Shown: piece by piece, positions 3,835-49,487 of the stretch
Numbering within the stretch: the stretch's first letter is position 1
Layout: each line of letters opens with the position of its first letter
Assembly (NCBI GenBank): GCA_012839115.1
Contig: DUNX01000023.1
Coordinates: 1-64,000 of the forward strand
Reading direction: 5' to 3'
Length of the DNA: 64,000 bases
Source of the DNA: Bacillota bacterium
GTDB lineage: Bacteria > Bacillota > UBA4882 > UBA10575
Translations under genes and position numbers: made by a program
The notes under the pieces: model-generated
What the model saw: the letters and a program-made list of their open reading frames with translations, nothing else
What the model was told of the DNA's origin: nothing
The model's database searches: none

Positions 3835-5046
3835 TTATTTAGCCATGGCGGCGGGGAGGATTTTTTTGGGGTCAACCAAAAAGGCGGTCAGGAGAAGAAC
3901 CGTAAGGAGTAAAGTGGAGATGCTCCAGAATAAGGCTTCCGGCGGAATTTCCAAGCCAAAAACCGGCGGGCCGCTGGCGACCCCGAAAAAGCGGACGGTA
4001 CCATAAAGACAGGTAATCAACCCCCGTTCGCTGCCGGGGACAGAAGAAGTGACCAGTGTATTCAGGGCCGGCAGGACTAATCCGGTCCCCAGCCCCAGCA
4101 GGGTCGTGGCGGTTATTTTCAGGAAGAGCCCGGAAAGAACCGGGAAAAAAAAGATCCCGGCGGCAATCAAAAAAAGCCCACCCAGGATCGACCATTTAAG
4201 GGTTCCAGCCGGGGTCCGTTTCAGGGTTATCCCCCAAAGATAGGAAGTGACTGCCATGATCAGGACGGGCACGGCAATAACCAGACCGCGGCGGAAGACT
4301 TGATAATGATAGGTTTTTTCCAACAAGTCGGAAACCAGGCTCAAGAGGCCGAAGAGGGCAAAGAGCACTACCATTCCGGCGAGAAAAAGGACAACCAGGT
4401 TAAGTCCTTTGGCCTGGAAAATCCCCTGCAGGCTTTTAATGTAAGCTTTGGCCGAGGGCGCCTGGCGCCGCCCTGCCGGTTCCTTGGCCACAAGAAAGAC
4501 GGCAAGTGCCACGGGGAAGGCCAGGATACCATAGACAAAAAACGGGGCATACCAGGAAAGGAGAGCAACGGCGGCCCCGGCCAAGGGACTGACCACTTTA
4601 CCCAAGCCGTTCCCGGCTTCCAGCAAGCCCAGAACTTGTATTCTCTCTTTCCCCTGAATTAGGTCGCCGGCCAAGGCCATGGCCAATTGGTAGGTCCCTC
4701 CCGCCCCGATCCCCTGGATGATCCTGGCGCCCAAAAGCCAGGGGTAGGCTGCCTCTTTGCCGAGAATGGCGGCCAGGCCGGCCAGTAACCCGCCGGTCCC
4801 GTAGACAATTAGGGCGGGGACCATGATTTTTTTTCTCCCCCAATGATCGGAGAGGGTTCCGGCAAAGGGGATGACGATCCCTGCCGGAATGGAAAAAGCC
4901 GTAATCAGCAGACCGGTTTGGCAGAGGCTGAGCCGGAGGTTTTCACGGATGGCAGGAAGAACCGGTATTAACATGGAATTACCAAGAACCATAATAAACG
5001 GTACGGTGGCGAGAATTCCGATCGTTGGCTTGAGGCCTTTTTCCAT
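3835..5046 (-). CDS. Major facilitator superfamily transporter
   Basis: Twelve-helix secondary transporter of 403 residues in the cytoplasmic membrane. The loop after the second helix carries the MFS motif, seen as GTLSDHWGRKKIM. Repeated glycine-rich helices follow, such as GLLAGLAAILG and IIQGIGAGGTYQLAMALAGDLI. The latter resembles the motif C region of drug:H+ antiporters, so multidrug export is the likeliest role, but the substrate cannot be read from the sequence. Only 58 bp separate it from dacF downstream. It is divergent from the DOMON-like protein gene. Confidence 0.88.
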   Translation of the reverse strand: MEKGLKPTIGILATVPFIMVLGNSMLIPVLPAIRENLRLSLCQTGLLITAFSIPAGIVIPFAGTLSDHWGRKKIMVPALIVYGTGGLLAGLAAILGKEAAYPWLLGARIIQGIGAGGTYQLAMALAGDLIQGKERIQVLGLLEAGNGLGKVVSPLAGAAVALLSWYAPFFVYGILAFPVALAVFLVAKEPAGRRQAPSAKAYIKSLQGIFQAKGLNLVVLFLAGMVVLFALFGLLSLVSDLLEKTYHYQVFRRGLVIAVPVLIMAVTSYLWGITLKRTPAGTLKWSILGGLFLIAAGIFFFPVLSGLFLKITATTLLGLGTGLVLPALNTLVTSSVPGSERGLITCLYGTVRFFGVASGPPVFGLEIPPEALFWSISTLLLTVLLLTAFLVDPKKILPAAMAK

Positions 5047-5178
5047 CGTTACACTCTGCCTTGTTTGGTCTTTCTTTTGCTGCAGCCTCTTTAGTCTGCC
5101 AAAAGTCCGGGGAAATTAACCCTAACGCATACTTCCTTTCTTCCCGGCGTAGATTTGGAAAAGAAGGAGGGGAGGAGG

Positions 5179-6117
5179 ATGCGTTTCCTGCGCGCATGGG
5201 GGTTATATACCTTATTCTTATGGCTGGTGCTGGCTTTTAACTCGATCCCCGGTGACGGGATGAGTCCGGCCGGTGCGATAGCCGCCGGTACCGAAGGAAT
5301 AGCCGTCCATTTTTATGCCGAGGACCCGGAGGGTGACGATTACGGCCCGGGAAGCTATGTTTACCCCGGTGATCCGGCGTTCACTCCTTACGAAGGCCTC
5401 TTCGACCTTTTGGCCTTCCGGGTTTGGAGTGACCGCCAGGGGGAAGAGGTTTATTTTGATGTGAAGATCAAAAACGTCACCAACCCCTGGGTGGCTCCGG
5501 AGGGTTTTATTCACCCGGTGATCCATATCTATATTGTCACCGGGAAGGGCGCCAACAGCGAACCGGTCAACGAAGGACCGCGGGTGGTTTTTTCCCCCCG
5601 GCACCGGTGGGAGTTTGCCCTTACCGGGATTGGCTGGGAAAACAGCGCTCTCTATCACTCGGCTGCGGCCGGAGGGCTACAAGAGACAGCAATTACCGCC
5701 GCCTATCTCCAGGAGGAGGACCTGATCCGGTTGGCGGTACCAAAAGGGATTATTGGGACCCCCAAAGCCAACTGGCAGTATTACGTTTTTACCGGATCAT
5801 ATGACGGGTTTGGCCCGGGTTTTTTCCGGGAGATCAAGGACGAGGCGGACGAGTGGTTTTTTGGCGGCGGTTCCGGGGGGGAGAACACCCCGCGTATCCT
5901 TGATTTGCTGGCCCCGATCAGTGGAAGGTACACCCAGGAAAAGCAGTTACAGGTATTACCTGGCGGCCAAATGGCATGTTTGTACCCGGTAGGAGCGGGG
6001 AGAAAGGGGGGCTTCTGGTGGCTCTGGTACTTATTACCCCTTGGGGTGGTTCTTTGGTTCCTTCTCCGTAAACCACCGGTATTCAGTATTTTCTGGTACA
6101 GAAAGAAAAGAAATTAA
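5179..6117 (+). CDS. Secreted, membrane-anchored protein with glucodextranase C-terminal/DOMON-like domain
   Basis: A 312-residue exported protein. It has an N-terminal signal peptide (MRFLRAWGLYTLFLWLVLAF) and a C-terminal membrane segment (WWLWYLLPLGVVLWFLL) followed by a basic tail. The body resembles the beta-sandwich domain found at the C-terminus of glucodextranases: it has the family-like stretch DDYGPGSYVYPGDPAF and then a region rich in beta-strand pattern (VYFDVKIKNVTNPW). Such domains bind carbohydrate or act as surface modules. No catalytic residues are evident. Start chosen at 5179 because AAGGAGG lies 8 bases upstream. Ligand and role are unknown. Confidence 0.8.
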   Translation: MRFLRAWGLYTLFLWLVLAFNSIPGDGMSPAGAIAAGTEGIAVHFYAEDPEGDDYGPGSYVYPGDPAFTPYEGLFDLLAFRVWSDRQGEEVYFDVKIKNVTNPWVAPEGFIHPVIHIYIVTGKGANSEPVNEGPRVVFSPRHRWEFALTGIGWENSALYHSAAAGGLQETAITAAYLQEEDLIRLAVPKGIIGTPKANWQYYVFTGSYDGFGPGFFREIKDEADEWFFGGGSGGENTPRILDLLAPISGRYTQEKQLQVLPGGQMACLYPVGAGRKGGFWWLWYLLPLGVVLWFLLRKPPVFSIFWYRKKRN

Positions 6118-6133
6118 AAAGGTATAGATTTTA

Positions 6134-6163
6134 CCTCCCGGGAGCAATAATAAATCCGGGAGG
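6134..6163 (+). promoter_or_regulatory. Inverted repeat that would sequester the yaaL ribosome-binding site
   Basis: CCTCCCGG and CCGGGAGG form a perfect 8-bp stem with a 14-base loop. The 3' arm is the Shine-Dalgarno sequence of the next gene (ATG at 6171). In the mRNA the stem would hide the ribosome-binding site. No T-run follows, so it is not a standard terminator. Confidence 0.6.
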
Positions 6164-6170
6164 GAAAAGA

Positions 6171-6455
6171 ATGCCTTTTGCCCAAATTGTGACATGGATA
6201 ACAGATCAACTCAATGGTGACCGTACGCAGAAGCCAAGACCGGCTAATTTTCTCCCAAAAAAACAGTTTAGCTTAATTGAGGAAGCCAAGCGGGATTGGC
6301 TCGCGGCAAGGAATTATTTTAATGCTGTTACAGATCCGGACCTGATTGACCACGCGATTTATACGATGGAAGCAGCGGAAAAAAGGTATGCCTATCTTCT
6401 GAGGAGAGCCCGGGAGGACGGACTTTTCCAAGAAAAGTTTTTATCTGATGTTTGA
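6171..6455 (+). CDS. yaaL: YaaL family protein (DUF2508)
   Basis: A 94-residue cytoplasmic protein of the YaaL/DUF2508 family. The signature is the helical segment LIEEAKRDWLAARNYFNAV followed by DPDLIDHAIYTMEAAEKRY. Function is unknown in the family, but the gene is conserved near recR and csfB in spore-forming Firmicutes, as here. The ribosome-binding site GGGAGGG lies in the 3' arm of a strong hairpin, suggesting translational control. Confidence 0.82.
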   Translation: MPFAQIVTWITDQLNGDRTQKPRPANFLPKKQFSLIEEAKRDWLAARNYFNAVTDPDLIDHAIYTMEAAEKRYAYLLRRAREDGLFQEKFLSDV

Positions 6456-6493
6456 ATTTTTATGGAGCAGCCAATTATTTTATATCCAATTGC

Positions 6494-6547
6494 TCGCGCG
6501 CGCTTCAACCTCACGGGCAGGTTGAGCAGTTCGCGCGCGCTTTAACC
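6494..6547. repeat. 17-bp direct repeat pair with CG cores, between yaaL and gin
   Basis: Two copies (6494-6510 and 6531-6547) differ at one base. Each begins TCGCGCGCGCTT and ends AACC, and they are 37 bp apart. The first copy's AACC also starts a small inverted repeat (AACCT/AGGTT, 6507-6523) that fills the gap between copies. Purpose unknown. Confidence 0.7.
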
Positions 6548-6570
6548 CGGAGAGGCGCCCGATAACCTAA

Positions 6571-6590
6571 CCGGGAATAGAATATCCCGG
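6571..6590 (+). promoter_or_regulatory. Hairpin just upstream of the gin ribosome-binding site
   Basis: CCGGGA and TCCCGG form a 6-bp stem with an 8-base loop, ending one base before the gin Shine-Dalgarno GAGGTG. It may affect translation or mRNA stability. Confidence 0.4.
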
Positions 6591-6605
6591 CGAGGTGTTG
6601 TCAGA

Positions 6606-6818
6606 GTGACTGAGAAACCATACTGTACTTGCTGTGGAAGGTTCATCACCGGTGGTGGCTTGCGTGTGTATGCCACTTTGATTTGCCGCTCGTGTGAAGC
6701 CCGGATTGCCCGCCTGAAAGTGGATGATCCCGATTATACTTATTGGTTGAGGGTAATTCATTCCCTTTGGGACCGTTGGGAGCAGAAGATAAACGAGCCT
6801 CCGCAGCCCACGACCTGA
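6606..6818 (+). CDS. gin: Anti-sigma-G factor Gin (CsfB)
   Basis: A 70-residue zinc-ribbon-like protein. In B. subtilis, Gin/CsfB binds and inhibits sigma-G (and sigma-E), holding back late sporulation genes. Two CxxC pairs are visible: CTCC near residue 7 and CRSC near 28. The typical C-terminal part follows (DDPDYTYWLRVIHSLWDRW). The start is GTG, with GAGGTG 8 bases upstream. The position upstream of the decarboxylase-tmk-darA genes matches the csfB locus of B. subtilis, although here the SppA-like gene intervenes. The 18-bp alternating tract and a strong terminator follow. Confidence 0.85.
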   Translation: MTEKPYCTCCGRFITGGGLRVYATLICRSCEARIARLKVDDPDYTYWLRVIHSLWDRWEQKINEPPQPTT

Positions 6819-6837
6819 ACCTCCGGTGCCTGCGCGG

Positions 6838-6855
6838 GCACGTGCGTACGCATGC
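6838..6855. repeat. 18-bp alternating purine-pyrimidine tract after gin
   Basis: Perfect alternation composed of CA, CG, TG and TA steps, between the gin stop codon and its terminator. A second, 9-bp tract follows at 6863-6871. Confidence 0.7.
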
Positions 6856-6876
6856 CCGGTATCGTGCGCGCCCCTA

Positions 6877-6909
6877 CCCCTGTTCCTCTACGAGCAGGGG
6901 TTTTGTTTT
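6877..6909 (+). terminator. Rho-independent terminator after gin
   Basis: CCCCTG and CAGGGG pair across a 12-base loop and are followed directly by TTTTGTTTTG. Confidence 0.85.
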
Positions 6910-6921
6910 GCTTTTTTTAAA

Positions 6922-6950
6922 TTGACAAAAATGGTGGTTTTTGTTATGCT
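6922..6950 (+). promoter_or_regulatory. Sigma-A-type promoter of the SppA-like gene
   Basis: TTGACA at 6922-6927, a 17-bp spacer and TATGCT at 6945-6950. It lies just after the gin terminator and 70 bp before the coding start, so the SppA-like gene is an independent transcription unit. Confidence 0.8.
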
Positions 6951-7019
6951 CAACACAATTAACTATAGAGACAAACCGCCTTTATACGTCCTGTTTTTAT
7001 AAGAAAAGGAGGAGACCTC

Positions 7020-9443
7020 GTGGAAAAAGGAGTAAAAGGTATTCTCAGGGTATTTTTTGTTTTGGCTTTCTTGTTGATGCCCGCCGCTGTTCAGGCAGGC
7101 CTTCCTCTGCACCATGATCTGTCGCCCGTACCTGCGGGCGTTTATAAGTACGGGTTATATGGCTATGATAACCCGGCGACCCTCACCTATCTGCACCAGC
7201 CTGATCTCTATTTTACCTGGCTCAACCAGGAAAATGGCGCCAAACTTCAGAAATGGGGCCTTTTTGGGGCTATTCCCCACCTTGGTTTTGGAATGGTTAA
7301 CCAAAAAACACCTGCCGGGTCGGTTATTGATTACCGGCTGTCCATGGCTATCGGAGACAGGTCTCTTGCCGTAGGATTGGGTTATGGCTGGTCCCGGGGG
7401 GATACTGAAATTTTCGACCGTGACCGCTTATTGACAGTGGGTTTTTTGGCCCGCCCCACCCGGTGGCTGTCGGTCGGCGCCACGGGATATCATGGTATAT
7501 ACCAGGGGGAGCAACAACTCTCCGTGGACTTGGGCTGGCGCCCAAAGGGTAATGAGATGTTAACAATTTTTACCGGTTTACGGGTGGATAAAGGTGAAAA
7601 ATTCGCCGAGGGTCGCTGGGCGGTGGGCTTTATTTATGAGGGCCTTACGGGTCTACGTATTACCGGGCAGGTTCTGGAAAACCAGTTGATGTTTGGGGCT
7701 TCCGTGAGCCTGGGCCGTTTTGGTTACACGAGATACGACAGATCCGACCGAGAGAATCGAGAGATCGTCACCACTACTACGCATGGAATCCGGTTCGGGG
7801 CTTACGACCGGACGTTTAGAGACCGTTACATGAACCGGGGCAAAAACTACCTCTACCTGGATTTACGGGGCAACCTGGGGTACCGCCGGTACCGCTATTT
7901 CGATTCCTCCAACACGCTGCAGGGTATTTTGCAGTCGATTGCCGAGGCGGAGCGTGACCCAACCATTGCCGGAATTGCCCTGAACCTTTCGGGGATGAAT
8001 GCCTCACCGGCGATGAGATGGGAGATCCGGGAACGGCTCCGCCAATTTCAAAAGACCGGCAAACGTGTGGTGGTTTATATCGACCGGGGCGGGATCACCG
8101 ATTACCATCTGGCTTCCGTTGCCGATTATATTGTCATCGATCCGCTGGGGCGTTTGTCACTGACCGGATTTACCACCGGCCAGGTATACTGGAAGGGGAC
8201 CCTTGAGAAGCTCGGTATCGGGGTGGAAGAATTGCGTTTCAACACTTACAAATCGGCCATGGAGTCATGGACACAAGAAGAGATGAGCGCAGCCGACCGT
8301 GAACAGTCCCAGCGGTTGGTTGATGTCTTTTACGAGCTTGTCCGTGCGGACGTCACTGCTGCGCGGGGAATCTCCGAAAGCGAATACGAGCGGTTGGTAA
8401 ATGAAGTCGCCTTTTTCAGCCCGGAGGAGGCTGTTGCCAACGGCCTGGCCGATGCGGTCGGGCGCTGGGACAAAATTTATGAACATCTCGAACAGATTGA
8501 GGGAAAGAAACCGAATCTGATCAACCCTTCGGCCATGCCCGCCCATAACGAACCCTTCGATGACTACTGGGGCGAGCCGCCGCAGATCGCCGTCATCTAC
8601 GCCCTTGGCGTCTGTGATTTGGATGCGGGGATTGGCGCCCGCCACCTTTCCCACGTGATCCGGCAGGCCGGGCAGAACCGGAGGGTAAAAGCCATTGTCT
8701 TCCGGGTGGATTCGCCCGGCGGCGATGCGCTGGCTTCCGATCTTGTCGCCGAGGCCCTGCGCGAAGCAGGCCAGGAAAAACCGGTCATTGTCAGCCAGGG
8801 GACGGTCGCCGCTTCCGGCGGGTACTGGATCTCTATGTATGGGGATACCATTCTTGCCGCCCCGAACACCATTACCGGTTCGATTGGGGTTATCAACGGG
8901 TGGTTCTATGATAAGGGTTTCAAAGAAAAGATCGGATTAAGTACAGACCTGGTCAAACGGGGGAACTTTGCCGATTTAGGCTTTGGCATCTTGTTGCCCT
9001 TGGTAAATATCCGCCTGGCGGACAGGAATCTGACGGAAGAGGAATTTGAAATAATGAAAGCCCAAGGCATGGCTATATACGAAGATTTTCTGGCGAAAGC
9101 AGCGGAAGGAAGAGGGATGGACTGCGAAGAAATGGAAGCCTATGCCCAGGGCCGGATATGGTCGGGTCTTGATGGCGTTGCGATTGGGCTCGTCGATGAA
9201 ATTGGCGGTCTTGCCGATGCCATACGGATGGCCAGGGAAAAAGCAGGCCTTCCTCCTGGAGAAAAGGTGAGAATAGTTGAATTTCCGGCGATGGGCGGGT
9301 TTACTTCAACTGCGGGCGCGATCATGACCCGGTTATTCGGGGTTGAAAAAGAGACCGACCCGTTACTTGAAGAAGTTAAATTCCGTACCCGGCATAATGG
9401 GGAGCCCCTCCCGGTGCTCCCATTGGAATTCACCATGCCTTGA
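7020..9443 (+). CDS. Outer-membrane-like beta-barrel fused to S49 signal peptide peptidase (SppA-like)
   Basis: An 807-residue exported protein in three parts. Residues 1-26 form a signal peptide ending AAVQA. Residues about 27-275 show alternating hydrophobic and polar residues with aromatic strand ends (for example DRLLTVGFLARPTRWLSVGATG), which is typical of a beta-barrel. From about 280 there are two S49 repeats. The first carries the presumed general-base Lys411 (NTYKSAMESW) and the second the nucleophile Ser599 (VAASGGYWISMYG), matching the Lys/Ser dyad of E. coli SppA. S49 enzymes cleave membrane-embedded signal peptides. The barrel suggests location in an outer membrane; that is inference from pattern. 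The start is GTG after AAAGGAGGAG. It is much longer than the short SppA usual in Firmicutes. Confidence 0.85.
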   Translation: MEKGVKGILRVFFVLAFLLMPAAVQAGLPLHHDLSPVPAGVYKYGLYGYDNPATLTYLHQPDLYFTWLNQENGAKLQKWGLFGAIPHLGFGMVNQKTPAGSVIDYRLSMAIGDRSLAVGLGYGWSRGDTEIFDRDRLLTVGFLARPTRWLSVGATGYHGIYQGEQQLSVDLGWRPKGNEMLTIFTGLRVDKGEKFAEGRWAVGFIYEGLTGLRITGQVLENQLMFGASVSLGRFGYTRYDRSDRENREIVTTTTHGIRFGAYDRTFRDRYMNRGKNYLYLDLRGNLGYRRYRYFDSSNTLQGILQSIAEAERDPTIAGIALNLSGMNASPAMRWEIRERLRQFQKTGKRVVVYIDRGGITDYHLASVADYIVIDPLGRLSLTGFTTGQVYWKGTLEKLGIGVEELRFNTYKSAMESWTQEEMSAADREQSQRLVDVFYELVRADVTAARGISESEYERLVNEVAFFSPEEAVANGLADAVGRWDKIYEHLEQIEGKKPNLINPSAMPAHNEPFDDYWGEPPQIAVIYALGVCDLDAGIGARHLSHVIRQAGQNRRVKAIVFRVDSPGGDALASDLVAEALREAGQEKPVIVSQGTVAASGGYWISMYGDTILAAPNTITGSIGVINGWFYDKGFKEKIGLSTDLVKRGNFADLGFGILLPLVNIRLADRNLTEEEFEIMKAQGMAIYEDFLAKAAEGRGMDCEEMEAYAQGRIWSGLDGVAIGLVDEIGGLADAIRMAREKAGLPPGEKVRIVEFPAMGGFTSTAGAIMTRLFGVEKETDPLLEEVKFRTRHNGEPLPVLPLEFTMP

Positions 9444-9501
9444 CCAACTGAATATTTCCTATAAAAAAGGAAGAGAAAAAGAACTGTCGAAATTTCTTTT
9501 T

Positions 9502-10995
9502 ATGCAGAACCAGCCACCGTTCACAGCATGTGTACCGTACGCAGATCTGTTTAGCCAAAAAGACGCACCGTTACTGGATGCCCTTTTGGCATACGCGAAA
9601 AGGCGCATGCTTCCTTTTCACATGCCCGGACACAGGGGGGGAGGCTTTGCTGAGGGGGTCTGGCGCAGGAGGGGGAAAGACCTTTTTTCGCTGGATTTGA
9701 CCGAAATAAGCGAGGTGGTCTCCGGCCGGGACTTGGATTTCTTTTGGCGGGCCGCGGAAGAATTGGCCGCCCGGGCCTTCGGCGCCCGCCGCAGCTATTT
9801 CTTGGTTAACGGCGCCAGCAGTGGAATTCTTGCCGCCCTCTTGTCCGTAGGCTGCCCGGGCGCAAAGATTTTGATCGCCCGGAATTGTCATCTTTCTGTT
9901 ATCAACGGCTTGATTCTTTCCGGATTATTACCGGTTTTTATCCCTCCACGGTGGATTGACGGCCACCCCGCGTTACCGCCCCGCACAGTCGTGGAAGAAG
10001 CACTCCGGCGCCACCCGGATGCGGTTGCCCTCTTGGTCACCAACCCGGGTTATCAGGGGATCTGTGGACCTTTGGCCGGGGTGGCGGCCGCCGCTGAATC
10101 CGCCGGTATTCCCCTGCTGGTGGATGAGGCCCACGGAGGACACCTGTGTTACCTGGACCGGGAAGTTGAGGCCTCCGCCGCCGGTGCGGATCTTTGGGTT
10201 TGGGGTACGCATAAGCTTATGGGTTCGTTGACACAAACCGGCCTGCTACACCTGGGTTCGGAGAAAATTCCCGCCGACCGGGTTGAGCAGGCCCTTTCCT
10301 TGATTAGTTCCACCAGCCCCTCCTATATTCTCCTGGCTTCACTGGATTCCACCCGTCGCCACCTTTATCTAAACGGGCGGGAACTGTTTGCCCGTGCCGC
10401 GGTCTACGGCGAAAAAATTAGAAAAGAATTGTCGAATCTGCCGGGGGTCAAAGTGCTGACCGGAGAAGAACTACCCCCGGGGTATGGCTTGGACCCGCTC
10501 AAGGTGGTATTTTCCCTGGCGCCGGCGGGGTGGCCGGGTTATGCCGCGGAAAAGGTCCTGCGGGAGAAATACCGGGTTCAGGTGGAATATGCCGACTCCC
10601 GCAATGTTTATTTAATTATTTCCCCGGCGCAAAAACCCGGAGAAATAAGGGGTCTCCTCAAAGCCTGCCGGGCCTTGGCGGAGAGCCGCGGCCCGGGGCT
10701 GGATGAAAAAACAACACCACCGCCCTTTTCCGGCGGGGAATTGTTCTTACCTCCCAGGGAGGCTGTTGCTGCCGTTTCCACCCGGGTACCTTTACGGGCG
10801 GCTGCGGGGAGGGTGGCCGCCGGTTGGGTGGCGGCCTACCCGCCGGGGATTCCCCTCTGGATCCCAGGGGAAAGAATAACCGGGGCCATGGTGGAGTGGG
10901 CATTGGCTTTCCAGGCGGCCGGCGGCTGCCTGCGCGGGGTGCAAGGGGATCTGACCCCGGTAGTGGCAGGTGGCGCGCGCGCAGGAAAGAGTTAA
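9502..10995 (+). CDS. Orn/Lys/Arg decarboxylase family protein (SpeA/YaaO-like)
   Basis: PLP-dependent fold-type I decarboxylase, about 497 residues. The substrate is probably arginine, lysine or ornithine, giving a polyamine or precursor. The family entry motif PFHMPGHRGG is near residue 36. The Schiff-base lysine is Lys238 in WGTHKLMGS, preceded by VDEAHGGH. A C-terminal domain follows. The gene lies directly before tmk, as yaaO does in B. subtilis. The ATG at 9502 is chosen from homologue length; its ribosome-binding site is poor (AGGAAGAG lies about 30 bases upstream). An 11-bp CG tract is found near the 3' end (10973-10983). Substrate specificity is not determined. Confidence 0.9.
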   Translation: MQNQPPFTACVPYADLFSQKDAPLLDALLAYAKRRMLPFHMPGHRGGGFAEGVWRRRGKDLFSLDLTEISEVVSGRDLDFFWRAAEELAARAFGARRSYFLVNGASSGILAALLSVGCPGAKILIARNCHLSVINGLILSGLLPVFIPPRWIDGHPALPPRTVVEEALRRHPDAVALLVTNPGYQGICGPLAGVAAAAESAGIPLLVDEAHGGHLCYLDREVEASAAGADLWVWGTHKLMGSLTQTGLLHLGSEKIPADRVEQALSLISSTSPSYILLASLDSTRRHLYLNGRELFARAAVYGEKIRKELSNLPGVKVLTGEELPPGYGLDPLKVVFSLAPAGWPGYAAEKVLREKYRVQVEYADSRNVYLIISPAQKPGEIRGLLKACRALAESRGPGLDEKTTPPPFSGGELFLPPREAVAAVSTRVPLRAAAGRVAAGWVAAYPPGIPLWIPGERITGAMVEWALAFQAAGGCLRGVQGDLTPVVAGGARAGKS

Positions 10996-11109
10996 GAGAT
11001 GTAAAAGGCTCCTTCCGCAGCTTCTGAAAAGAGGAAATAGTAAAAGGATTGTCGAATTTCTGAAAGACGCGGAAGAGAGTGGAATAGAATATAACGAGGT
11101 AGTGATTGT

Positions 11110-11811
11110 TTGCACCAGGGCAAAAAAGGCTTTTTTATTACCTTGGAAGGTATTGACGGGACCGGAAAGACCACACAAGCGAAACTTTTGGCTGAAAACT
11201 TGAAGAAGCGGGGGTTTCCGGTCCTTTTGACCAGGGAGCCGGGGGGAACCCTCCTGGCCGAGAGGATCCGGACGATGCTTTTGGAGTTGGGAGAGGAGAA
11301 GCCCCTCCCCCTGGCCGAGCTTTTGTTATACGGGGCTGCCCGTGCCCAGCATGTGGCAAAGATCATCAGCCCGGCGCTGGCTGCAGGGACAGTCGTTATC
11401 TGCGAGCGGTTTTCCGATTCCACCTTGGCTTACCAGGGGTACGGGCTAGAGCTCGACCTGGAAATGATCACGGAGGTTAACCGGATTGCCACCGGCGGGC
11501 TGGCGCCCAACCTCACCTTCCTTTTCCATTTGGAAGCAGAAGAAGTGTGGAGGAGGATCCGGCAGCGGGCCCCGGAGGGAAGCGGGGACCGGATTGAAGC
11601 CAGGGGCTGTACTTTTCTGGAAAAGGTGCAACAAGGCTATCTGAAACTGGCGGAAGCGGCGCCGGAACGGATAAAAGTCCTCCCGTGCCAGGGGAAATCA
11701 GTCCAGGAGATTCAAGAGCTTTTATTGGCCGCATGCTTCGAGAAATTGGGAGAGGAGGCGGTAACGGGTGAAATTGATCATTGCCGTGGTTCAAGACCAG
11801 GATGCGAATAA
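11110..11811 (+). CDS. tmk: Thymidylate kinase
   Basis: Phosphorylates dTMP to dTDP with ATP, an essential step in dTTP synthesis. The P-loop GIDGTGKT is at about residues 14-21, the DR-containing motif is TREPGGT, and the lid region has QRAPEGSGDRIEA. The protein is 233 residues, slightly longer than usual because the 3' end overlaps darA by 44 bp. The start is a TTG with GAGGT 9 bases upstream, chosen because MHQGKKGFFITLEG aligns with family N-termini. The frame upstream holds no better start. Confidence 0.94.
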   Translation: MHQGKKGFFITLEGIDGTGKTTQAKLLAENLKKRGFPVLLTREPGGTLLAERIRTMLLELGEEKPLPLAELLLYGAARAQHVAKIISPALAAGTVVICERFSDSTLAYQGYGLELDLEMITEVNRIATGGLAPNLTFLFHLEAEEVWRRIRQRAPEGSGDRIEARGCTFLEKVQQGYLKLAEAAPERIKVLPCQGKSVQEIQELLLAACFEKLGEEAVTGEIDHCRGSRPGCE

Positions 11812-12097
11812 GCTGCTCAGTGCTTTGATGGAAAAAGGGTACGGCGCCACCAAACTGGCCAGTACCGGGGGTTTCCTGCGTCAGGGGAATACCACTTTAC
11901 TCATAGGGACAAAGGATGACGAACTCAGCGAAGTAACGGTGATCATCAAAGAAATTTGCCACACCAGGAAACAACTGGTGAGTCCGATGGCAACGGTTGA
12001 GCAGACAGTGAGCAGCTATATTCCCAGTCCGGTGGAGGTGGAAGTGGGGGGCGCCACCATCTTCGTGGTGCAGGTCGAGTCTTTTGAGAAGATCTGA
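11768..12097 (+). CDS. darA: PII-like cyclic-di-AMP receptor DarA (YaaQ family)
   Basis: A 109-residue PII-like trimeric protein. In B. subtilis and S. aureus the family (DarA/PstA/YaaQ) binds cyclic di-AMP and is thought to pass the signal on. The N-terminal strand MKLIIAVVQDQDANKL and the following LASTGGFLRQGNTTLLIG are diagnostic. The GTG start has AGGAGG 9 bases upstream and lies inside the tmk coding end, indicating translational coupling. It sits between tmk and yaaR as in B. subtilis. Confidence 0.94.
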   Translation: MKLIIAVVQDQDANKLLSALMEKGYGATKLASTGGFLRQGNTTLLIGTKDDELSEVTVIIKEICHTRKQLVSPMATVEQTVSSYIPSPVEVEVGGATIFVVQVESFEKI

Positions 12098-12129
12098 GCC
12101 CAGCCTTTTGTGACAAGGAGGCGCCAGCG

Positions 12130-12573
12130 ATGGAGATCAAGCGGGTGGGGAGAAAGGACTCCCCGGCAAAGAAGAAGAAGGCCGGAGCAAAAGTAAACCT
12201 GAAACATTCGGTTTTCTTTGCTACCCTCCAGGAATATGAAACGAAGAACGCGGAAGGAAGCTTGGAAGATTTTATCGCCGTGGTGGATGAAGCAGCCCAA
12301 AACCTGCTACAGGAGCGGACCCTTGCCAATCTCCGCCATTACCGGGAAGCGGTCCGGGAGTTCATGAAAAAGGTGGTGGCCGGGAGTTACCAGGTTAAGG
12401 GGTCACACCGCTGGGATGGACGGGGTAAGCGGAAGATGTTCTACTTGATTGAAAAGGTGAATTATTCTTTGGAAGGGCTGGCGGCGATGGTCTTGAAAAA
12501 GCAGACGGATACGATGAAGCTGATGGCTGCTTTGGATGAGATTAGAGGCCTGCTCCTGGATTTATACTATTAA
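12130..12573 (+). CDS. yaaR: YaaR family protein (DUF327)
   Basis: A 147-residue, highly charged and mostly helical cytoplasmic protein. It starts with a lysine-rich tail (KRVGRKDSPAKKKKAG) and ends with ALDEIRGLLLDLYY, the usual YaaR ending. The family has no established function; its place between darA and holB is strongly conserved in Firmicutes. A good ribosome-binding site (AAGGAGG) precedes the ATG. Confidence 0.9.
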   Translation: MEIKRVGRKDSPAKKKKAGAKVNLKHSVFFATLQEYETKNAEGSLEDFIAVVDEAAQNLLQERTLANLRHYREAVREFMKKVVAGSYQVKGSHRWDGRGKRKMFYLIEKVNYSLEGLAAMVLKKQTDTMKLMAALDEIRGLLLDLYY

Positions 12574-33086: not shown

Positions 33087-34406
33087 GTGGAAAAAAACCG
33101 GAACATACCGTCGGCCGGGAGTTTATGCTTTTACCGGCGAATAACCGCCTGCCTGCTCCTGCTTTTTCTTGCGGGACCGGGGACCTCCCGGGCGGCGGAA
33201 GATCTTTGGGATATGGAAAAAGTGGTGACAACCGCCCTGCGTCAGAGTGAAATTGCGATCAGGGCGGCGGAGAACCTGTACCAAAAAGAGCTCGAACTGA
33301 AGATGGCCAGATCTTTCTCCCGCGGCCGGGCCGGTGTTGGCGCGGGTGTAACGGCCGTTCCGGCGACTGGCAGGGATTACACCGTCACCGGCCGGCCTGA
33401 GCTCAGCATTGAGCTTCCTGTTACCTCCCGGCTGAAACTGGGCGCAAAATGGAACCCGGATGAACAGACCACAGTGTCGCTGGATTATGAACTGCTGGCG
33501 GAGGATACAAAGACGGCCGGGGCACGGCGGGCTTTGGCCATGGCAAAGCTGGAATACGAAAAGATCATGGTCACCCTGGAACTACAGGTCCGGAAGGAAT
33601 ATATCGACCTTTTGTCGGCTTTCAAGAACCGGCGCCGGGCTGAAGAAGAACTGGCGGTGATTGCGGATTATCACAAAATTGTCCAGCGCCGTTTTGACCA
33701 GGGATTTCTCTCCGAGGCGGATTTACGCAGTAGTGAGGGAGAACTGCTCCGGGCCGGGCTGCAATTGAAGAGAAGCGAGCTTCAGGAAGAAAGGGCCCGG
33801 CTCAACCTTTCCCGGCTTTTGCAAAACGATCTTTCCCAGGTCCAATTTGCAGAGTTGCCGGAGTTTCCTGTAGTTGAGGCGGAAAAGGAAAAATTGCTGG
33901 CGGAAGCCCTGGCCAACAATGTTGATCTGCAGCAAGCCCGGATGCAATTGGCGGTTGCCCGTGAAGAATTGGCAAGGGTACACCGGAACCACCCGGTTAT
34001 TTCTCTGGGGGTAACCGCAGGGAAAGAGGAGCGACCTGCGGTCTCTGCCGGATTTTCCTGGACAATAGGTTTTGACCGGCGGCAACAGTTGGAGATTAAC
34101 CGGATCAATGTGGAACAGGGGGAACGGGCGGTCCAAAGCACCGTAACTGCTGTGGAGGACCGGGTGGCCGCTGCGCTTGCCGATTTTGAACTGGAACGGC
34201 AAGCCATGGCCTGGTTGGAACTGCAGTGGCAGGAGGCGGAACGGACCTACCGGGGGATGGAGATCCGGTTTGCCGCCGGCGAGTTACGTGCGGTGGAACT
34301 GGAAAAAGCGCGTTTAGCCCGGGACGAGGCTTTCCAGGATTATCTCGAGGGTTGGAACAGGACGTGGAAGGCTTGGTATACTCTGTTGGCGGTCATCGCC
34401 GCATAG
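33087..34406 (+). CDS. TolC family outer-membrane efflux protein
   Basis: A 439-residue exported protein whose signal peptide (ITACLLLLFLAGPGTSRA) precedes a body of long amphipathic helices. These include VEKEKLLAEALANNVDLQQAR-like stretches and a repeat of the same architecture, as in TolC/OEP-family trimeric channels. TolC forms the outer-membrane exit duct of tripartite pumps, so its presence implies an outer membrane. It lies immediately before MacA- and MacB-like genes. The GTG start has GGGAGGTGAG 9 bases upstream. Confidence 0.85.
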   Translation: MEKNRNIPSAGSLCFYRRITACLLLLFLAGPGTSRAAEDLWDMEKVVTTALRQSEIAIRAAENLYQKELELKMARSFSRGRAGVGAGVTAVPATGRDYTVTGRPELSIELPVTSRLKLGAKWNPDEQTTVSLDYELLAEDTKTAGARRALAMAKLEYEKIMVTLELQVRKEYIDLLSAFKNRRRAEEELAVIADYHKIVQRRFDQGFLSEADLRSSEGELLRAGLQLKRSELQEERARLNLSRLLQNDLSQVQFAELPEFPVVEAEKEKLLAEALANNVDLQQARMQLAVAREELARVHRNHPVISLGVTAGKEERPAVSAGFSWTIGFDRRQQLEINRINVEQGERAVQSTVTAVEDRVAAALADFELERQAMAWLELQWQEAERTYRGMEIRFAAGELRAVELEKARLARDEAFQDYLEGWNRTWKAWYTLLAVIAA

Positions 34407-34421
34407 AACGGGGGGAGGAGC

Positions 34422-35903
34422 GTGAGACGACCAGGGAAATTAATAATTCTACTGGTTGCCGCCGGGGTTTTGGCCGGGGGATGGCTAGTATGGGGGATAA
34501 TTGCCAGAAAGGCGGGAAGAACGCCCCAGTATGTGACCACCCGGGTAACCCGTGGTACAATCATGTCGGCAGTGGACGCCACGGGTGAACTCAAACACGG
34601 CCGGCAGGAATATATCTACTGGGAAGTGACAGGCACCGTAACCCAATTGCTGGTCGGCGCCGGCGATACGGTCCGTGAAGGACAACTGCTGGCCAGGTTG
34701 GAGTCGCAGGAGGCCCGGGACCGTTTGGCCGATGCCAAGGACAGCCTGGAAATCGCCAGGATTAAACTGTCCAAGGCGGAGGAGGCCTTTAAAACCGCCC
34801 GTCAGGATGCGGAGTTGCAATATGAAAGGGCCAAAGCAGATTTGGCCGCCGCCGTCCTGCGCCTGGAGGAAATAAAGGAAGGCGCCGGCGCTCCGGAACT
34901 GGAAACAGCCAGGAGTAATCTGCGGGCGGCCGAAAGGGCTTATCAGGCGGCGGAGAAGGAATTTGCCCTGAATGAACAGCTCTTTGCCGAAGGGCTGGTC
35001 GCCAAGAAAGAATATGACGATTCCTTACAGGCATTGGAGGCGGCCCGGGATCAGGTGACCACCGCCCGCCTCCGGTTGGAAGATCTGATGAAACCCCCAG
35101 ACGAGAAAGAACTTGCCGTGGCCGGGGCCGCGGTCAGGCAGGCGGAGATAAATCTGCTATTGGCCGAACGGCAGTTGGAAACAGTCGAAACCCACAGGTA
35201 TGAAGAGTTGACCGCAGCGCAACTGGAATACAGGAAACACCAACGAGTCCTGGCTGAAGCCGAGAAGCTGGTGGAGAGTTTGCATCTACGGGCGCCGTTT
35301 ACCGGGTTGGTTTTGACGATCAACGCCGCGGAGGGCGAAGAAGTGGTTGCCACTTCCCGCGGACAGGAGACCTTTTTGCCCTTTATGATCCTGGCTTCCC
35401 ATGACCGCTGGGAGGTCCAGGCCTATGTAAACGAAGAGGATGTGGTCAAAATCACCCTGGGAATGCCGGCTGAGATCGCTTTATTGGCCAAAGAAGACCG
35501 GGTTTTTGCCGGCCGGGTTTCTTCCGTCGGAGCGGAAGCCAGGGTTTCCAGTAACATCGTTACATATCCGGTCACCGTCCAGATGGAAGAGAGCGCAGAA
35601 TTTTTCCGCCCCGGGATGTCGGCGGATCTTCTTATTATTATTGAACAAAAAGAAGATGTCCTGATCCTGCCCCAGGCGGCGATTACAAAAAAGGGTGGCC
35701 GCAGCATGGCACAGGTCTTGCAGAACGGCAAAACCCAACTGGTCCCGGTGGAAACCGGGATCACCGGCAACGGTATGGTGGAGATCCGTTCCGGGCTGGA
35801 CGAAGGGGCGGAAGTGGTTACCGGGGTCAGAGAAGCCGCAGCTCCCGGGGGGCGGCCCCCGGCTGTCAGAGTGAATTTCCCCGGGATCCGGATCCGGAGG
35901 TGA
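34422..35903 (+). CDS. MacA-like periplasmic adaptor (HlyD/RND membrane fusion family)
   Basis: Membrane fusion protein of 493 residues that bridges the inner-membrane pump and the TolC channel. One N-terminal membrane segment (LIILLVAAGVLAGGWLVWGI) anchors it. A biotinyl-lipoyl-like half (VTQLLVGAGDTVREGQLLARL) pairs with its partner (HLRAPFTGLVLTINAAEGEE) on either side of a very long coiled-coil hairpin (residues about 100-280). This is longer than in E. coli MacA, in line with a deep span. A beta-barrel and C-terminal domain follow. It lies between tolC and macB-like genes, 15 bp after the former. Confidence 0.9.
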   Translation: MRRPGKLIILLVAAGVLAGGWLVWGIIARKAGRTPQYVTTRVTRGTIMSAVDATGELKHGRQEYIYWEVTGTVTQLLVGAGDTVREGQLLARLESQEARDRLADAKDSLEIARIKLSKAEEAFKTARQDAELQYERAKADLAAAVLRLEEIKEGAGAPELETARSNLRAAERAYQAAEKEFALNEQLFAEGLVAKKEYDDSLQALEAARDQVTTARLRLEDLMKPPDEKELAVAGAAVRQAEINLLLAERQLETVETHRYEELTAAQLEYRKHQRVLAEAEKLVESLHLRAPFTGLVLTINAAEGEEVVATSRGQETFLPFMILASHDRWEVQAYVNEEDVVKITLGMPAEIALLAKEDRVFAGRVSSVGAEARVSSNIVTYPVTVQMEESAEFFRPGMSADLLIIIEQKEDVLILPQAAITKKGGRSMAQVLQNGKTQLVPVETGITGNGMVEIRSGLDEGAEVVTGVREAAAPGGRPPAVRVNFPGIRIRR

Positions 35904-35907
35904 ACAG

Positions 35908-36660
35908 GTGATTAGTGTTACCGGTCTCTCAAAGATCTACCAAACCGGCCGGGTTCAGGTAACCGCCTTAACTGAGGTCACTTTCCCGATTAGAGCCGGC
36001 GAATTCGTTGCGATTATGGGGCCTTCCGGCTCCGGTAAATCCACGTTAATGAATATCCTCGGCTGCCTTGACCTTCCCACTGCCGGTTCCTACCGCCTGG
36101 CGGGGCGGGAGATTAGCGGGCTGTCCCCCGGGGAGCTGGCAGGAATCCGCAACCGGGAACTGGGGTTTATTTTTCAATCCTTCAACCTGCTCCCCCGGTT
36201 GAATGCCTGGCGTAACGTGGAGTTGCCCTTGATTTATGGGGGTATTTCTTCCCGGGAAAGGCGGGAACGGGCGTTGGCCCTCCTTGCTACAGTGGGTTTG
36301 GCGGACCGGGCCGAACACCGGCCGCAGGAGTTGTCCGGCGGGGAGCAGCAGAGGATTGCCATCGCGCGGGCTCTCGCCAACCGGCCGGCGGTTATCTTGG
36401 CTGACGAACCCACCGGCAACCTTGATACCAAAGCCAGCCGGGAGATTATGAAACTCTTTACCGCCTTGCATCAAGAGGGCAAGACGATTGTCATGATTAC
36501 CCATGACCCGGAGATTGCCGTTTTTGCCGGGCGTGTTCTCTATTTCCGCGACGGCCGTCTCCGCCGGGATTTATTGACTGTGGACCCGCAGACAGGCGAG
36601 GCTTTTACCGCCCGGGATTTAATCGACCGGTTGCACGGGGAGGAAGAGGGGATGCCATGA
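35908..36660 (+). CDS. MacB-like ABC transporter ATP-binding protein
   Basis: ATPase subunit of 250 residues in the MacB/LolD-type clade. Walker [10 protein letters not shown] is at residues 38-46, the signature LSGGEQQR at 142-149, and Walker [13 protein letters not shown] at 162-173. The GTG start has GGAGGT upstream. The stop overlaps the next gene's start (ATGA), so the permease is translationally coupled. In E. coli the ATPase and permease are fused in one MacB; here they are separate, as in many Firmicutes. Confidence 0.94.
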
Positions 36661-37886
36661 AAATTATGAAGATCCGGGATAACTTACAAATGTCCCTGGA
36701 AGGGCTGACCGGCAACCCCCTCCGCTCGATTCTTACCACTTTAGGGGTGATCATCGGTGTCACCGCGGTTATTGTCATGACAGCCCTGGGCGAAGGAGCT
36801 TCCCGGCAGGTAACCGCAGGTATTGAGGGCCTGGGCTCAAACCTCCTAATCATCACCCCGGGACGCACCGGCAGAAGGAGCCGGGAACTGGGGGCGGCTG
36901 GCAGCGCTACCACCGTCACCAGTGATCTCCTGCCGGTCCTGGAGAGGGAATTGGCTGGAGAGGGTGGGGAACTCTTCCGTGGCATGGCCCCCGAAGTCCG
37001 GCAGGCACTGCCGGTCCGGAATGCCGGCCTTAGTATCACCACGAATGTCTTGGGCGTTACCCCCGCTTACCCGGGTGTCAGGGGTTATGCCCTGGAGGAA
37101 GGGGCTTTTTTCACTGAAGACGATCTGGAGAGGCGGAACCGCCTGGCGGTACTGGGAAAAGCCACGGCGGAAGAGCTTTTTGGCGAAGAATTGCCGGTGG
37201 GACGGGTGATCCGGATCGCCAACAACCGTTTTACGGTTATTGGTGTTTTGGCCGAACGGGGTTACTCCGGCTTTTCCCATCTGGATGATTTGGTTTTAGT
37301 CCCCCTGACTACTGCCCAGCGCAGGCTCTTTGGGCATAACCGGCTGCACAGCATCTACCTGGAGGTGGTGGATTCCCGGTCCATGGAGACTGCCTATGCC
37401 CGGATCGACCGGATCTTACGCGGGTATTTCCAGGAGGAGACGGCCTATTCCTTAAGTAATCAGGTGCAGATGCTTGAGACCATTCAGAGTACAACCCGGA
37501 CCTTCACCCTCCTGCTGGCGGGGATCGCCAGTGTCTCCCTGTTGGTTGGAGGGATCGGGATCATGAATATCATGCTGGTTTCAGTGACCGAACGGATCCG
37601 GGAAATTGGGATTCGCAAAGCACTGGGCGCGCAAAGACGCGAAATCCTCCTGCAGTTTTTATTCGAAGCCATAGTATTAAGCCTGGCCGGCGGGGGGCTC
37701 GGGATCTTACTGGGCCTGGCCGGTTCCCGGCTGGCGGCGCTCTTCGGAGGCTGGCCGGCGGTTGTCTCCTTGAAAGCCGTCCTGCTCGCCTTCGGTTTTG
37801 CCTTGGCGGTCGGCCTTTTCTTTGGCGTTTATCCCGCGTATAAGGCCTCGTTGCTGCCGCCGGCGGAAGCCTTGCGCCATGAGTGA
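36657..37886 (+). CDS. MacB-like ABC transporter permease (FtsX family)
   Basis: Permease of 409 residues with four membrane helices and a large outside domain between helix 1 and helix 2. The family pattern is MSLEGLTGNPLRSILTTLGVIIG at the start, and MLVSVTERIREIGIRKALGA after helix 2. The C-terminal FtsX part has the usual GFALAVGLFFGVYPAYKA. MacB-type machines use mechanotransmission to drive export of peptides, siderophores or drugs through TolC; here the substrate is unknown. It is the last gene of the cluster. Confidence 0.94.
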   Translation: MKIMKIRDNLQMSLEGLTGNPLRSILTTLGVIIGVTAVIVMTALGEGASRQVTAGIEGLGSNLLIITPGRTGRRSRELGAAGSATTVTSDLLPVLERELAGEGGELFRGMAPEVRQALPVRNAGLSITTNVLGVTPAYPGVRGYALEEGAFFTEDDLERRNRLAVLGKATAEELFGEELPVGRVIRIANNRFTVIGVLAERGYSGFSHLDDLVLVPLTTAQRRLFGHNRLHSIYLEVVDSRSMETAYARIDRILRGYFQEETAYSLSNQVQMLETIQSTTRTFTLLLAGIASVSLLVGGIGIMNIMLVSVTERIREIGIRKALGAQRREILLQFLFEAIVLSLAGGGLGILLGLAGSRLAALFGGWPAVVSLKAVLLAFGFALAVGLFFGVYPAYKASLLPPAEALRHE

Positions 37887-46898: not shown

Positions 46899-49487
46899 TT
46901 ACCGGAGTGTAAAATAGCTGCGGATCGGTTTTCCGGGGTTGACGCCACTCCTGAAACCATGCGGGTCTTTAACCACGACGCCGTTGACAATGACATAATA
47001 AATTCCCCGGGAATAACTGCCGGTCTTCTCTGCGGTGGCCGTATCGATGATTTCCCCATAATCAAAGAGAGTAATGTCCGCATCCATCCCCAGGCGTAAC
47101 CTTCCCTTTTTCTGTAAGGCCGGCGCCACATTATCCAGCCGGCGGGCCGGAAGAATCGTCATCATTTTTAAGGCTTTCATCAGCGGGATCACCCTTCTTT
47201 CCCTGGCATAGAGGCCGATCGTCCTGGAAAAGCAGCCGGCCCCGCGCGGGTGATTGTTCATATGCGGTTCAATAATGGTATCACTGCCGATCATGGCGTA
47301 GTCGGCCTGTAGGGCCAGGTCCACATCTTCATCGGGAATAGCGTAGGCAATCAGGAGGACCCGCTGTTTCCGGTATTTTGCAAAACTCTCTTCCGTTAGC
47401 CGTTCCGTGCTGTTCCCCACCTGCAGGTCTTCATAACTGATCTGGAAACGTTCCTGCCAACCCGGGTCAAACCGGGCGGAATTGGAATAGGTCGCCCAGG
47501 AGTTGTAGGGATAGAGATCAACCATAACATCCACGCCTTCCCGGCGTGCCTCTTCAATGATCTTCAGGCTTTCCGCCATGGAAAAGGTCCCGCCCGTACT
47601 GTTAATATGGACAATCTGTACGGAAGTGCCGAGTTCCCGGGCGTAACCGATCACTTCATTAATGGCGTCAATATTATTTCCCCCGGGTCCGTACATCGTA
47701 GCGTAACGGACATGGAAAAAGGAGGTCAAGTCGTATTTCTTGCCCACTTCCATGATGGCTCTAATCTCTTCGGTACTCATCCCCGGGTAGTATTCGGGGC
47801 TGAAGGAAATCCCGATGGCCCCGTCCAAAATGGCCTGTTCCGTCATTTTTTTCATCTCTTCAATCTGGGCGGGGGTCGGTGCCCTGTAATTGCCGATCCC
47901 GAGTTTATGCCTGAATCCTACCTGGAGGACGGCGCCGCCGTAATTCAGGATCATGGGCCTTTTGGCGTAATATCTGAACCAACCGGGGAAGTCGATGGTT
48001 GCCCCGTGCATGGCCAGATTGGTAGTAACCCCGTCCGCCACCTTGAACCTGTTCCCCACATCATTAGGGCTGTAGGAAAGGATATCAATGAAACCGGGGG
48101 TAACCAGCAGCCCGGTGGCGTCGATCTCTTCGGCGCCGCGGATTTCTTCCCGGCTGATCGCTGTGACCCGTTCCCCTTTTATCCCCACGTTATAGTTGAA
48201 TTTGATCGTTTCCGTCTCCGGATCGATCACCGTGCCGTTACGGATAACCAGGTCAAAGAGTTCGCTTGCATTACCTTGGGCCGCCTCTCCTTGCCGGTCC
48301 CTGTCTTCCTCCGGTGTTTCCTGAACTCCGGCAAGAGAGGGCAGGTATTCCTTTAAACCGGCATAATACAGGCCGGTCCTCCCGTTTTCGGAGGCAAGGA
48401 AATAGACACCTTCCGCAGTCGCATCCCAGAATAAGAGGGTGGCCGGTCTCCGGTCCAGTGTTAGTTCGATCTTTTCTCCACTGGGGAGTGCGGACAAAAG
48501 CAGTTTGGGTTCTCTCGTGTTCGCGGCCGCTACGGCCAGCAGGTCGCCCCGGGCGGAGAGGGCGGGAGGAGCGGCGGTCCCCGCCAGGGAGAAAAGGAGC
48601 TCCCTGCTGTTTTCTGCCACATTGTGCTTGCAGATTTGCACGGCGCCGCCCTCTTCAGAGGGGGCAAGAAAGAGAAACTCCTCATCCCCGGGGAGCACCT
48701 GCAACCAGGGGCGAAAACCGGCGGTAACGGAATTGGCGTCCGCCAAGGCAAAAAGCTCTATTGGCAGGTCCAGGGTATTCCGGTCGGTATGGGCAAAGAT
48801 CTTCCCGTCCTTCCCGGCGGCGGGGTAAAAGAGCCTCTTCTCCACCAGCGAAGAAAGGGTAATATTCCCCATTATTGTCCGGTCCGTAAAAGAAAAGGCT
48901 TGACCCTGTCTTTTTTCCAGATCAAAAAAGACCGCTTGGTTTTTTCCTTCGTTATTGAAAAGAGAGAGCCATAACCCGGATCCGTCCGGGGTGAGGTTCA
49001 TATGGATCTCTGCTCTTTCCATTGGTATTTCGAGCTCAGGCAGGTTTTGGGTAATAATTTCCGCAGGAGGTTGCGGGTGCGCGGGGGTACCGTTGGACGC
49101 ACCTCCGTGTGTTGTCAGCTTTTGTACAAGCAGTTCGAACCGATCGCAGGTATCTTCTTGGCCGGATACATCTTCTTCATTGCGTGCCTTTTCCCCATCG
49201 TGGGCGGCTTCTTGATGGCCTGCATTTTCTTGGCCGCGGCCGCCTTCCCGTTCGTTGCCAACCCTGACTATATATGCCATAAGCCCTTCCCGTCCTGTGG
49301 CCGTAAGAACAGTTCCAGTTTCTTCCCAGACCAGGAAAGAGCTTATCGTATCATTGTTTTTCTCTGCGGCCGGCAAAAACGATCCCCAAAGGATCCACAG
49401 AACCGCAAGGAACACAAGAGCCAAGCCCAGCAGGGTCAGGATTTTTTTCCAATGCCCGGAAAGTCTTTTGCCGGAAGGGAATTTCAT
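46899..49487 (-). CDS. Membrane-anchored N-acyl-D-amino-acid deacylase-like amidohydrolase, fused to a beta-rich N-terminal region
   Basis: An 862-residue protein. A membrane segment (ILTLLGLALVFLAVLWILWG) is near the N-terminus. A charged linker follows (about 75-130). A beta-strand-rich region, perhaps propeller-like, spans about 150-390. From about 410 the protein matches D-aminoacylase-type amidohydrolases (LFDLVIRNGTVIDP ... GLLVTPGFID). In this family HTH-type metal ligands follow GFID; here the sequence is ILSYSPND instead, and the usual Cys site reads NLAMHGA. His near 592 (FHVRY), His near 622 (VHINSTG) and Asp near 733 (IGSDT) are kept. Activity may be altered or use one metal. The active domain would lie outside the cell membrane. 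Confidence 0.8.
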   Translation of the reverse strand: MKFPSGKRLSGHWKKILTLLGLALVFLAVLWILWGSFLPAAEKNNDTISSFLVWEETGTVLTATGREGLMAYIVRVGNEREGGRGQENAGHQEAAHDGEKARNEEDVSGQEDTCDRFELLVQKLTTHGGASNGTPAHPQPPAEIITQNLPELEIPMERAEIHMNLTPDGSGLWLSLFNNEGKNQAVFFDLEKRQGQAFSFTDRTIMGNITLSSLVEKRLFYPAAGKDGKIFAHTDRNTLDLPIELFALADANSVTAGFRPWLQVLPGDEEFLFLAPSEEGGAVQICKHNVAENSRELLFSLAGTAAPPALSARGDLLAVAAANTREPKLLLSALPSGEKIELTLDRRPATLLFWDATAEGVYFLASENGRTGLYYAGLKEYLPSLAGVQETPEEDRDRQGEAAQGNASELFDLVIRNGTVIDPETETIKFNYNVGIKGERVTAISREEIRGAEEIDATGLLVTPGFIDILSYSPNDVGNRFKVADGVTTNLAMHGATIDFPGWFRYYAKRPMILNYGGAVLQVGFRHKLGIGNYRAPTPAQIEEMKKMTEQAILDGAIGISFSPEYYPGMSTEEIRAIMEVGKKYDLTSFFHVRYATMYGPGGNNIDAINEVIGYARELGTSVQIVHINSTGGTFSMAESLKIIEEARREGVDVMVDLYPYNSWATYSNSARFDPGWQERFQISYEDLQVGNSTERLTEESFAKYRKQRVLLIAYAIPDEDVDLALQADYAMIGSDTIIEPHMNNHPRGAGCFSRTIGLYARERRVIPLMKALKMMTILPARRLDNVAPALQKKGRLRLGMDADITLFDYGEIIDTATAEKTGSYSRGIYYVIVNGVVVKDPHGFRSGVNPGKPIRSYFTLR

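Follow-up and report, generated by a model that had tools for sequence, protein, structure and literature searches.

A predicted outer-membrane barrel joined to an SppA-type peptidase in a diderm genus of Bacillota

SppA is known for clearing signal peptides at the inner membrane, and proteolysis at the outer membrane is not known to be carried out by Lys-Ser peptidases. A gene at positions 7020–9443 of the window, the whole 64,000-nucleotide stretch of Bacillota DNA analyzed here, raises the question of whether such a peptidase may be held at an outer membrane by a barrel of its own, and how a gene of this kind came to lie in the genome of a spore-former. The probable answer is that the encoded protein is an outer-membrane-anchored, periplasm-facing serine peptidase of the SppA type, whose gene was gained by horizontal transfer. 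Computation supports the domain order, the intact catalytic dyad, the 14-strand barrel-like fold, the diderm host, and the insertion into a conserved locus.

The gene and the signals on its upstream side are as follows.

7020..9443, + strand: whole gene, barrel-SppA fusion, 807 amino acids, GTG start (kept in loci L015 and L016)
7007..7012, + strand: ribosome binding site AGGAGG, 7 bases 5' of the start (sequence)
6922..6950, + strand: sigma-70-like promoter TTGACA-17-TATGCT, in which TG precedes the second hexamer (10 of 12, by consensus match only)
6876..6901, + strand: terminator-like hairpin 5' of the gene, 10 pairs with a T-rich tail (consensus match only)

The 807-codon reading frame opens with GTG at 7020 and closes with a stop codon at 9441–9443. 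It is taken as real because of the GTG start with its AGGAGG site and because the gene is conserved in two further species of the genus, where it is 75–76% identical and the gene order is unchanged. The initial annotation had given the gene its own strong promoter and a position set apart by terminators. Upstream this holds, with a promoter-like and a terminator-like site in place; downstream it does not, as only 58 bases separate the gene from yaaO (9502) and no terminator-like site was found within them. The fusion gene is thus isolated on the upstream side only. An Rfam search of 5000–12500 returned no RNA element, and a scan of viral contigs gave no relative.

Within the protein, the following parts can be told apart.

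7020..7097, + strand: signal peptide, residues 1–26, with cleavage inferred after AQA (sequence; hydropathy)
7098..7202, + strand: hatch-like stretch before the barrel, residues 27–61 (AlphaFold2; analogy with FadL, PMC8407342)
7170..7178, + strand: Asn-Pro-Ala motif, residues 51–53 (N in 75, P in 76, and A in 64 of 76 homologues)
7203..7799, + strand: 14 predicted antiparallel strands of an outer-membrane barrel, residues 62–260 (AlphaFold2, fold matches, strand alternation)
7800..7907, + strand: linker, residues 261–296 (low confidence in both AlphaFold2 runs)
7908..8504, + strand: first S49 repeat, about residues 297–495 (Pfam, NCBIfam, alignment with PDB 3bez)
8250..8252, + strand: codon AAA of catalytic Lys411, opposite E. 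coli SppA Lys209 (alignment; 76 of 76)
8580..9254, + strand: second S49 repeat, about residues 521–745 (Pfam, NCBIfam, alignment with PDB 3bez)
8814..8816, + strand: codon TCC of catalytic Ser599, opposite E. coli SppA Ser409 (alignment; 76 of 76)
9255..9440, + strand: C-terminal tail, residues 746–807, with the end motif GEPxPVLPLEF within the genus (comparison in the genus)

The peptidase half is the more readily classified. Pfam S49 matches it in two stretches (5e-63), and the TIGR00706 domain model is passed with 195.3 bits against a cut-off of 155.45. The TIGR00705 model covers residues 296–744 with 297.9 bits, which is below its curated cut-off of 311.45, and because of this the protein is filed as an SppA variant rather than as a TIGR00705 SppA. 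The E. coli enzyme (PDB 3bez) aligns with residues 297–744, a span of 448 residues, and its catalytic Lys and Ser, Lys209 and Ser409, fall opposite Lys411 and Ser599. Both residues are invariant in all 76 homologues, and the full-length AlphaFold2 model matches the 3bez fold with an E-value of 1.4e-30. The two S49 repeats with a complete dyad, as first read from the sequence, are therefore borne out by profile matches and alignment alike.

The N-terminal half is harder to place. No family emerged for this domain of about 270 residues from sequence searches of Pfam, NCBIfam, and the PDB, whether it was submitted alone or with 32 homologues, and hydropathy past residue 26 reveals no segment hydrophobic enough for a transmembrane helix. 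AlphaFold2 was run twice, first with the whole protein and then with only its mature N-terminal part, and both models contain exactly 14 antiparallel strands across residues 62–260. With an input alignment of only six sequences, mean pLDDT was 62 and 70 and pTM 0.55 and 0.68, respectively; the strands in the N-terminal run reach a pLDDT near 80. The modeled strands are short, at about 14 residues each with the turn included. Foldseek against the PDB places OmpG first (2F1C, E 6.5e-7, TM about 0.5, 7% identity), followed by other outer-membrane barrels, among them FadL, TodX, Omp33, KdgM, and Veillonella OmpM1, with TM-scores of about 0.4–0.55 and large rmsd. Viral structures yielded only weak, generic porin-like matches.

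Strand patterning points the same way. Hydrophobic residues gather on one face of the strands, with a mean alternation over the 76 homologues of 0.42 against 0.178 ± 0.035 for shuffled sequences (6.8 SD higher, a value reached by none of 2000 shuffles), in a test that is not fully independent of the fold prediction, since the strand boundaries were taken from the AlphaFold2 model. The S49 strands, as a negative control, lie at −1.0 SD. The initial annotation had read barrel patterning behind the signal peptide and pointed to structure prediction, with 8–14 strands expected of a barrel; the patterning is confirmed, and the models give 14 strands with outer-membrane barrels as their best PDB matches. 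An NPA motif in an N-terminal hatch is a hallmark of FadL, where it is used for substrate-driven opening (PMC8407342). The 14-strand models, the fold matches, the alternation, and the conserved NPA motif together suggest that the N-terminal domain is, by prediction, a compact FadL-like barrel with a hatch.

A barrel of this kind calls for an outer membrane. The 2.35-Mb assembly to which the window belongs (G000) encodes LpxC and a BamA that has both POTRA and Omp85 domains, and the window itself carries a TolC-type efflux gene (33087–34406) together with a germination protease gene consistent with a spore-former. By gene content, the host is a diderm member of the Bacillota with an LPS outer membrane. 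Omp85 was found in 50 of 200 sampled genomes of the phylum, about three quarters being without it, and the carriers include the listed genomes of the same genus, family, order, and class. The host thus belongs to a diderm lineage such as PMC5007114 discusses for Firmicutes. In a diderm lineage, an outer-membrane protein is to be expected and is not paradoxical.

Several other observations were made in these genomes. The TolC-type gene opens a complete-looking tripartite efflux set (33087–37886, + strand) with an HlyD/MacA-like adaptor, an ABC ATPase, and a MacB-like permease. On the opposite strand, 46899–49487 encodes 862 amino acids with a long N-terminal part and a C-terminal amidohydrolase domain. 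A short, ordinary SppA occurs in addition to the fusion in the two sister species, G001 and G002; none was found in G000, where it has been lost or lies in an assembly gap.

The surroundings of the gene record how it arrived. Directly 5' of the fusion, a 70-residue reading frame (6606–6818, + strand) encodes Gin, the sigma-G inhibitor (Pfam PF10764). The order gin, yaaL, yaaO, tmk, yaaQ, yaaR, holB, yaaT is classical for Bacillota and is broken here by the inserted gene. Further upstream, 5155–6117 (+ strand) encodes a secreted protein that carries a glucodextranase C-terminal (SLH-like) module and has a membrane segment at its C terminus; its gene adjoins yaaL throughout the family. Five genomes from four sister genera lack the fusion but keep the gene order MFS, glucodextranase-C-like gene, yaaL, yaaO, tmk, yaaQ. 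In a tree of the 76 full-length homologues, with a midpoint root only, the three Bacillota copies group as a single clade (100). Their sister is a sequence from the BMS3Bbin03 phylum (99), and the clade is nested within other diderm phyla. The empty site in the sister genera and this nesting indicate that the ancestor of the genus acquired a single gene, placed between gin and yaaO, by horizontal transfer from another diderm phylum.

The same data could in principle reflect a contaminating diderm whose gene entered the bin or the assembly by error, as the closest relative outside the genus belongs to another phylum and the rest of the family lacks the gene. Against this, three separately assembled genomes hold the fusion between gin/yaaL and yaaO-tmk-yaaQ-yaaR-holB, with the same Bacillota flanks and at 75–76% identity, and its GC3 of 0.61 is like that of its neighbors (0.57–0.67). 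The shared flanks in three genomes and the empty sites in sister genera led to rejection of contamination, which is scarcely conceivable as an explanation.

Beyond the genus, the distribution was followed with a profile of the N-terminal domain alone. The barrel domain is present in 3 of 399 genomes of the host phylum, all three from the same genus; in 26 of 297 genomes of the Ignavibacteria-containing phylum, that of Ignavibacteriaceae locus L018; in 50 of 296 Spirochaetota; and in 36 of 82 genomes from the phylum of Bacterium BMS3Bbin03. No monoderm carrier was found among the genomes searched. Wherever the sequence of a fetched match allows, the S49 part is present; L052 has a frame break, its S49 motifs lying one frame over, whereas L065 and L068 appear to be cut short. 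Homologues with this domain order lie in diderm phyla, which favors the reading of the initial annotation, and among the sampled genomes of the host phylum in one genus only. Judged from sequence, the fusion is an established diderm architecture that is not unique to this organism. Its earlier description as the most unusual protein in the window stands only relative to the window, as certain other diderm phyla have the architecture in many of their genomes. Among the neighboring genes, named by eye, are an HtpX-like M48 membrane protease two genes 5' of the fusion in L018 (2947–3792, + strand) and a BamA-like surface-antigen reading frame 5' of it in L017 (1007–2269, + strand).

How the protein would work can be outlined from these parts, and it is the outer-membrane insertion, orientation, oligomeric state, and substrate that we infer. 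Sec would export the protein, and BAM would fold residues 62–260 into a small 14-strand outer-membrane barrel, with residues 27–61 serving as a hatch like that of FadL. A barrel with an even number of strands has its two ends on the periplasmic side, so that both S49 repeats would hang in the periplasm just beneath the outer membrane. There they would make up an active Lys-Ser peptidase that, like E. coli SppA, is probably an oligomer. The initial reading of a protease placed at an outer membrane is supported as a prediction, since the strand count and the distribution of homologues both came out in its favor. The most likely substrates would be hydrophobic or misfolded peptides and fragments of outer-membrane proteins near the inner leaflet. 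The idea of leftover signal peptides is weaker than that of general peptide clearance, since it is at the inner membrane that signal peptides are set free. Sister species have kept a short, ordinary SppA, a hint that the fusion has another task.

Whether the predicted barrel merely anchors the peptidase or also admits its substrates is the main point on which readings differ. As a FadL- or OmpG-like channel, it would pass incoming or outgoing peptides to the S49 chamber, and the whole would be a device for peptide uptake or clearance. Such a proteolytic pore is favored by the hatch, whose conserved NPA motif serves substrate-driven opening in FadL, and by the 14-strand fold like those of OmpG and FadL, as well as by the retention of the fusion in all phyla where the barrel domain was found, suggesting that the halves act jointly. 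The strands and loops are short, however, and divergence is faster in the barrel half than in the peptidase half (43% versus 60% identity with L080), as would be the case for a mere anchor. On this comparison of sequences the balance leans toward an anchor rather than a channel, and we regard the pore as a minority prospect. Less probable still is that the N-terminal part forms a soluble or peripheral beta domain of the periplasm, engaged for example in substrate binding or oligomer assembly, and that the protein is not inserted into the outer membrane. The short strands, the low depth of the AlphaFold2 models, and the lack of a sequence match to known outer-membrane families would fit such a domain, but the strong hydrophobic alternation on a single face, best fold matches that are transmembrane barrels, and the restriction to diderm genomes all oppose it.

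An outer-membrane-anchored peptidase thus remains the preferred reading. A search of open-licence papers found no description of a barrel-bearing SppA. Surface proteomics of Leptospira lists an SppA among abundant surface-exposed proteins, in lists that include cytoplasmic proteins too (PMC8659334); as a possible barrel form, this is only a lead. The SppA knocked out in Flavobacterium columnare (PMC13236525) was considered and set aside, as its 589-residue form leaves no room for a barrel. Both halves of the fusion are of known kinds and their combination is common in some phyla, and on the sequence evidence it is filed as a putative new SppA variant. More speculatively, and with rather low confidence, it may represent a widespread, undescribed class of outer-membrane peptidases in less-studied diderms, in which a minimal FadL-like barrel with its own hatch feeds peptides into an SppA chamber as a proteolytic pore. 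If several diderm phyla share a conserved, barrel-borne SppA, proteolysis of the SppA type takes place at the outer membrane as well. The transfer into a diderm Bacillota genus clearly exemplifies the passage of an outer-membrane protein from one phylum to another, and it bears on how the outer membranes of Firmicutes are furnished.

Among peptidases, one of the closest known systems is E. coli SppA, or protease IV (67K type, TIGR00705, MEROPS S49, PDB 3BEZ), with the same two S49 repeats, the Lys in the first and the Ser in the second. The E. coli enzyme is anchored in the inner membrane by an N-terminal helix, with its bowl facing that membrane. In place of the helix anchor, the fusion has a signal peptide and the predicted 14-strand barrel domain. 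The short-type SppA of Bacillus subtilis (PDB 3RST) has the S49 catalytic fold and aligns with the second repeat of the fusion, but it consists of a single S49 domain without a barrel; the additional SppA of G001 and G002 is of this short type.

Among barrels, the FadL and TodX transporters share with the fusion the predicted 14 strands, the N-terminal hatch-like stretch with an NPA motif, and the fold match. They differ in that the barrel of the fusion is about half as long, lacks long loops, and is joined to a peptidase. The Pfam model for FadL and toluene transporters matches none of 32 members at E ≤ 1; the N-terminal domain may function as FadL does, but it is not assigned to that family. 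The monomeric porin OmpG (PDB 2F1C), the best PDB fold match, has 14 strands without a hatch or an enzyme domain.

The PlpD-type patatin-barrel proteins (type Vd autotransporters) likewise join a hydrolase to an outer-membrane barrel. PlpD carries its barrel, one of the Omp85 type, at the C-terminal end and exports its hydrolase. PlpD is named in PMC4104836. The predicted barrel of the fusion differs in being N-terminal and not of the Omp85 type, and its enzyme should remain in the periplasm.
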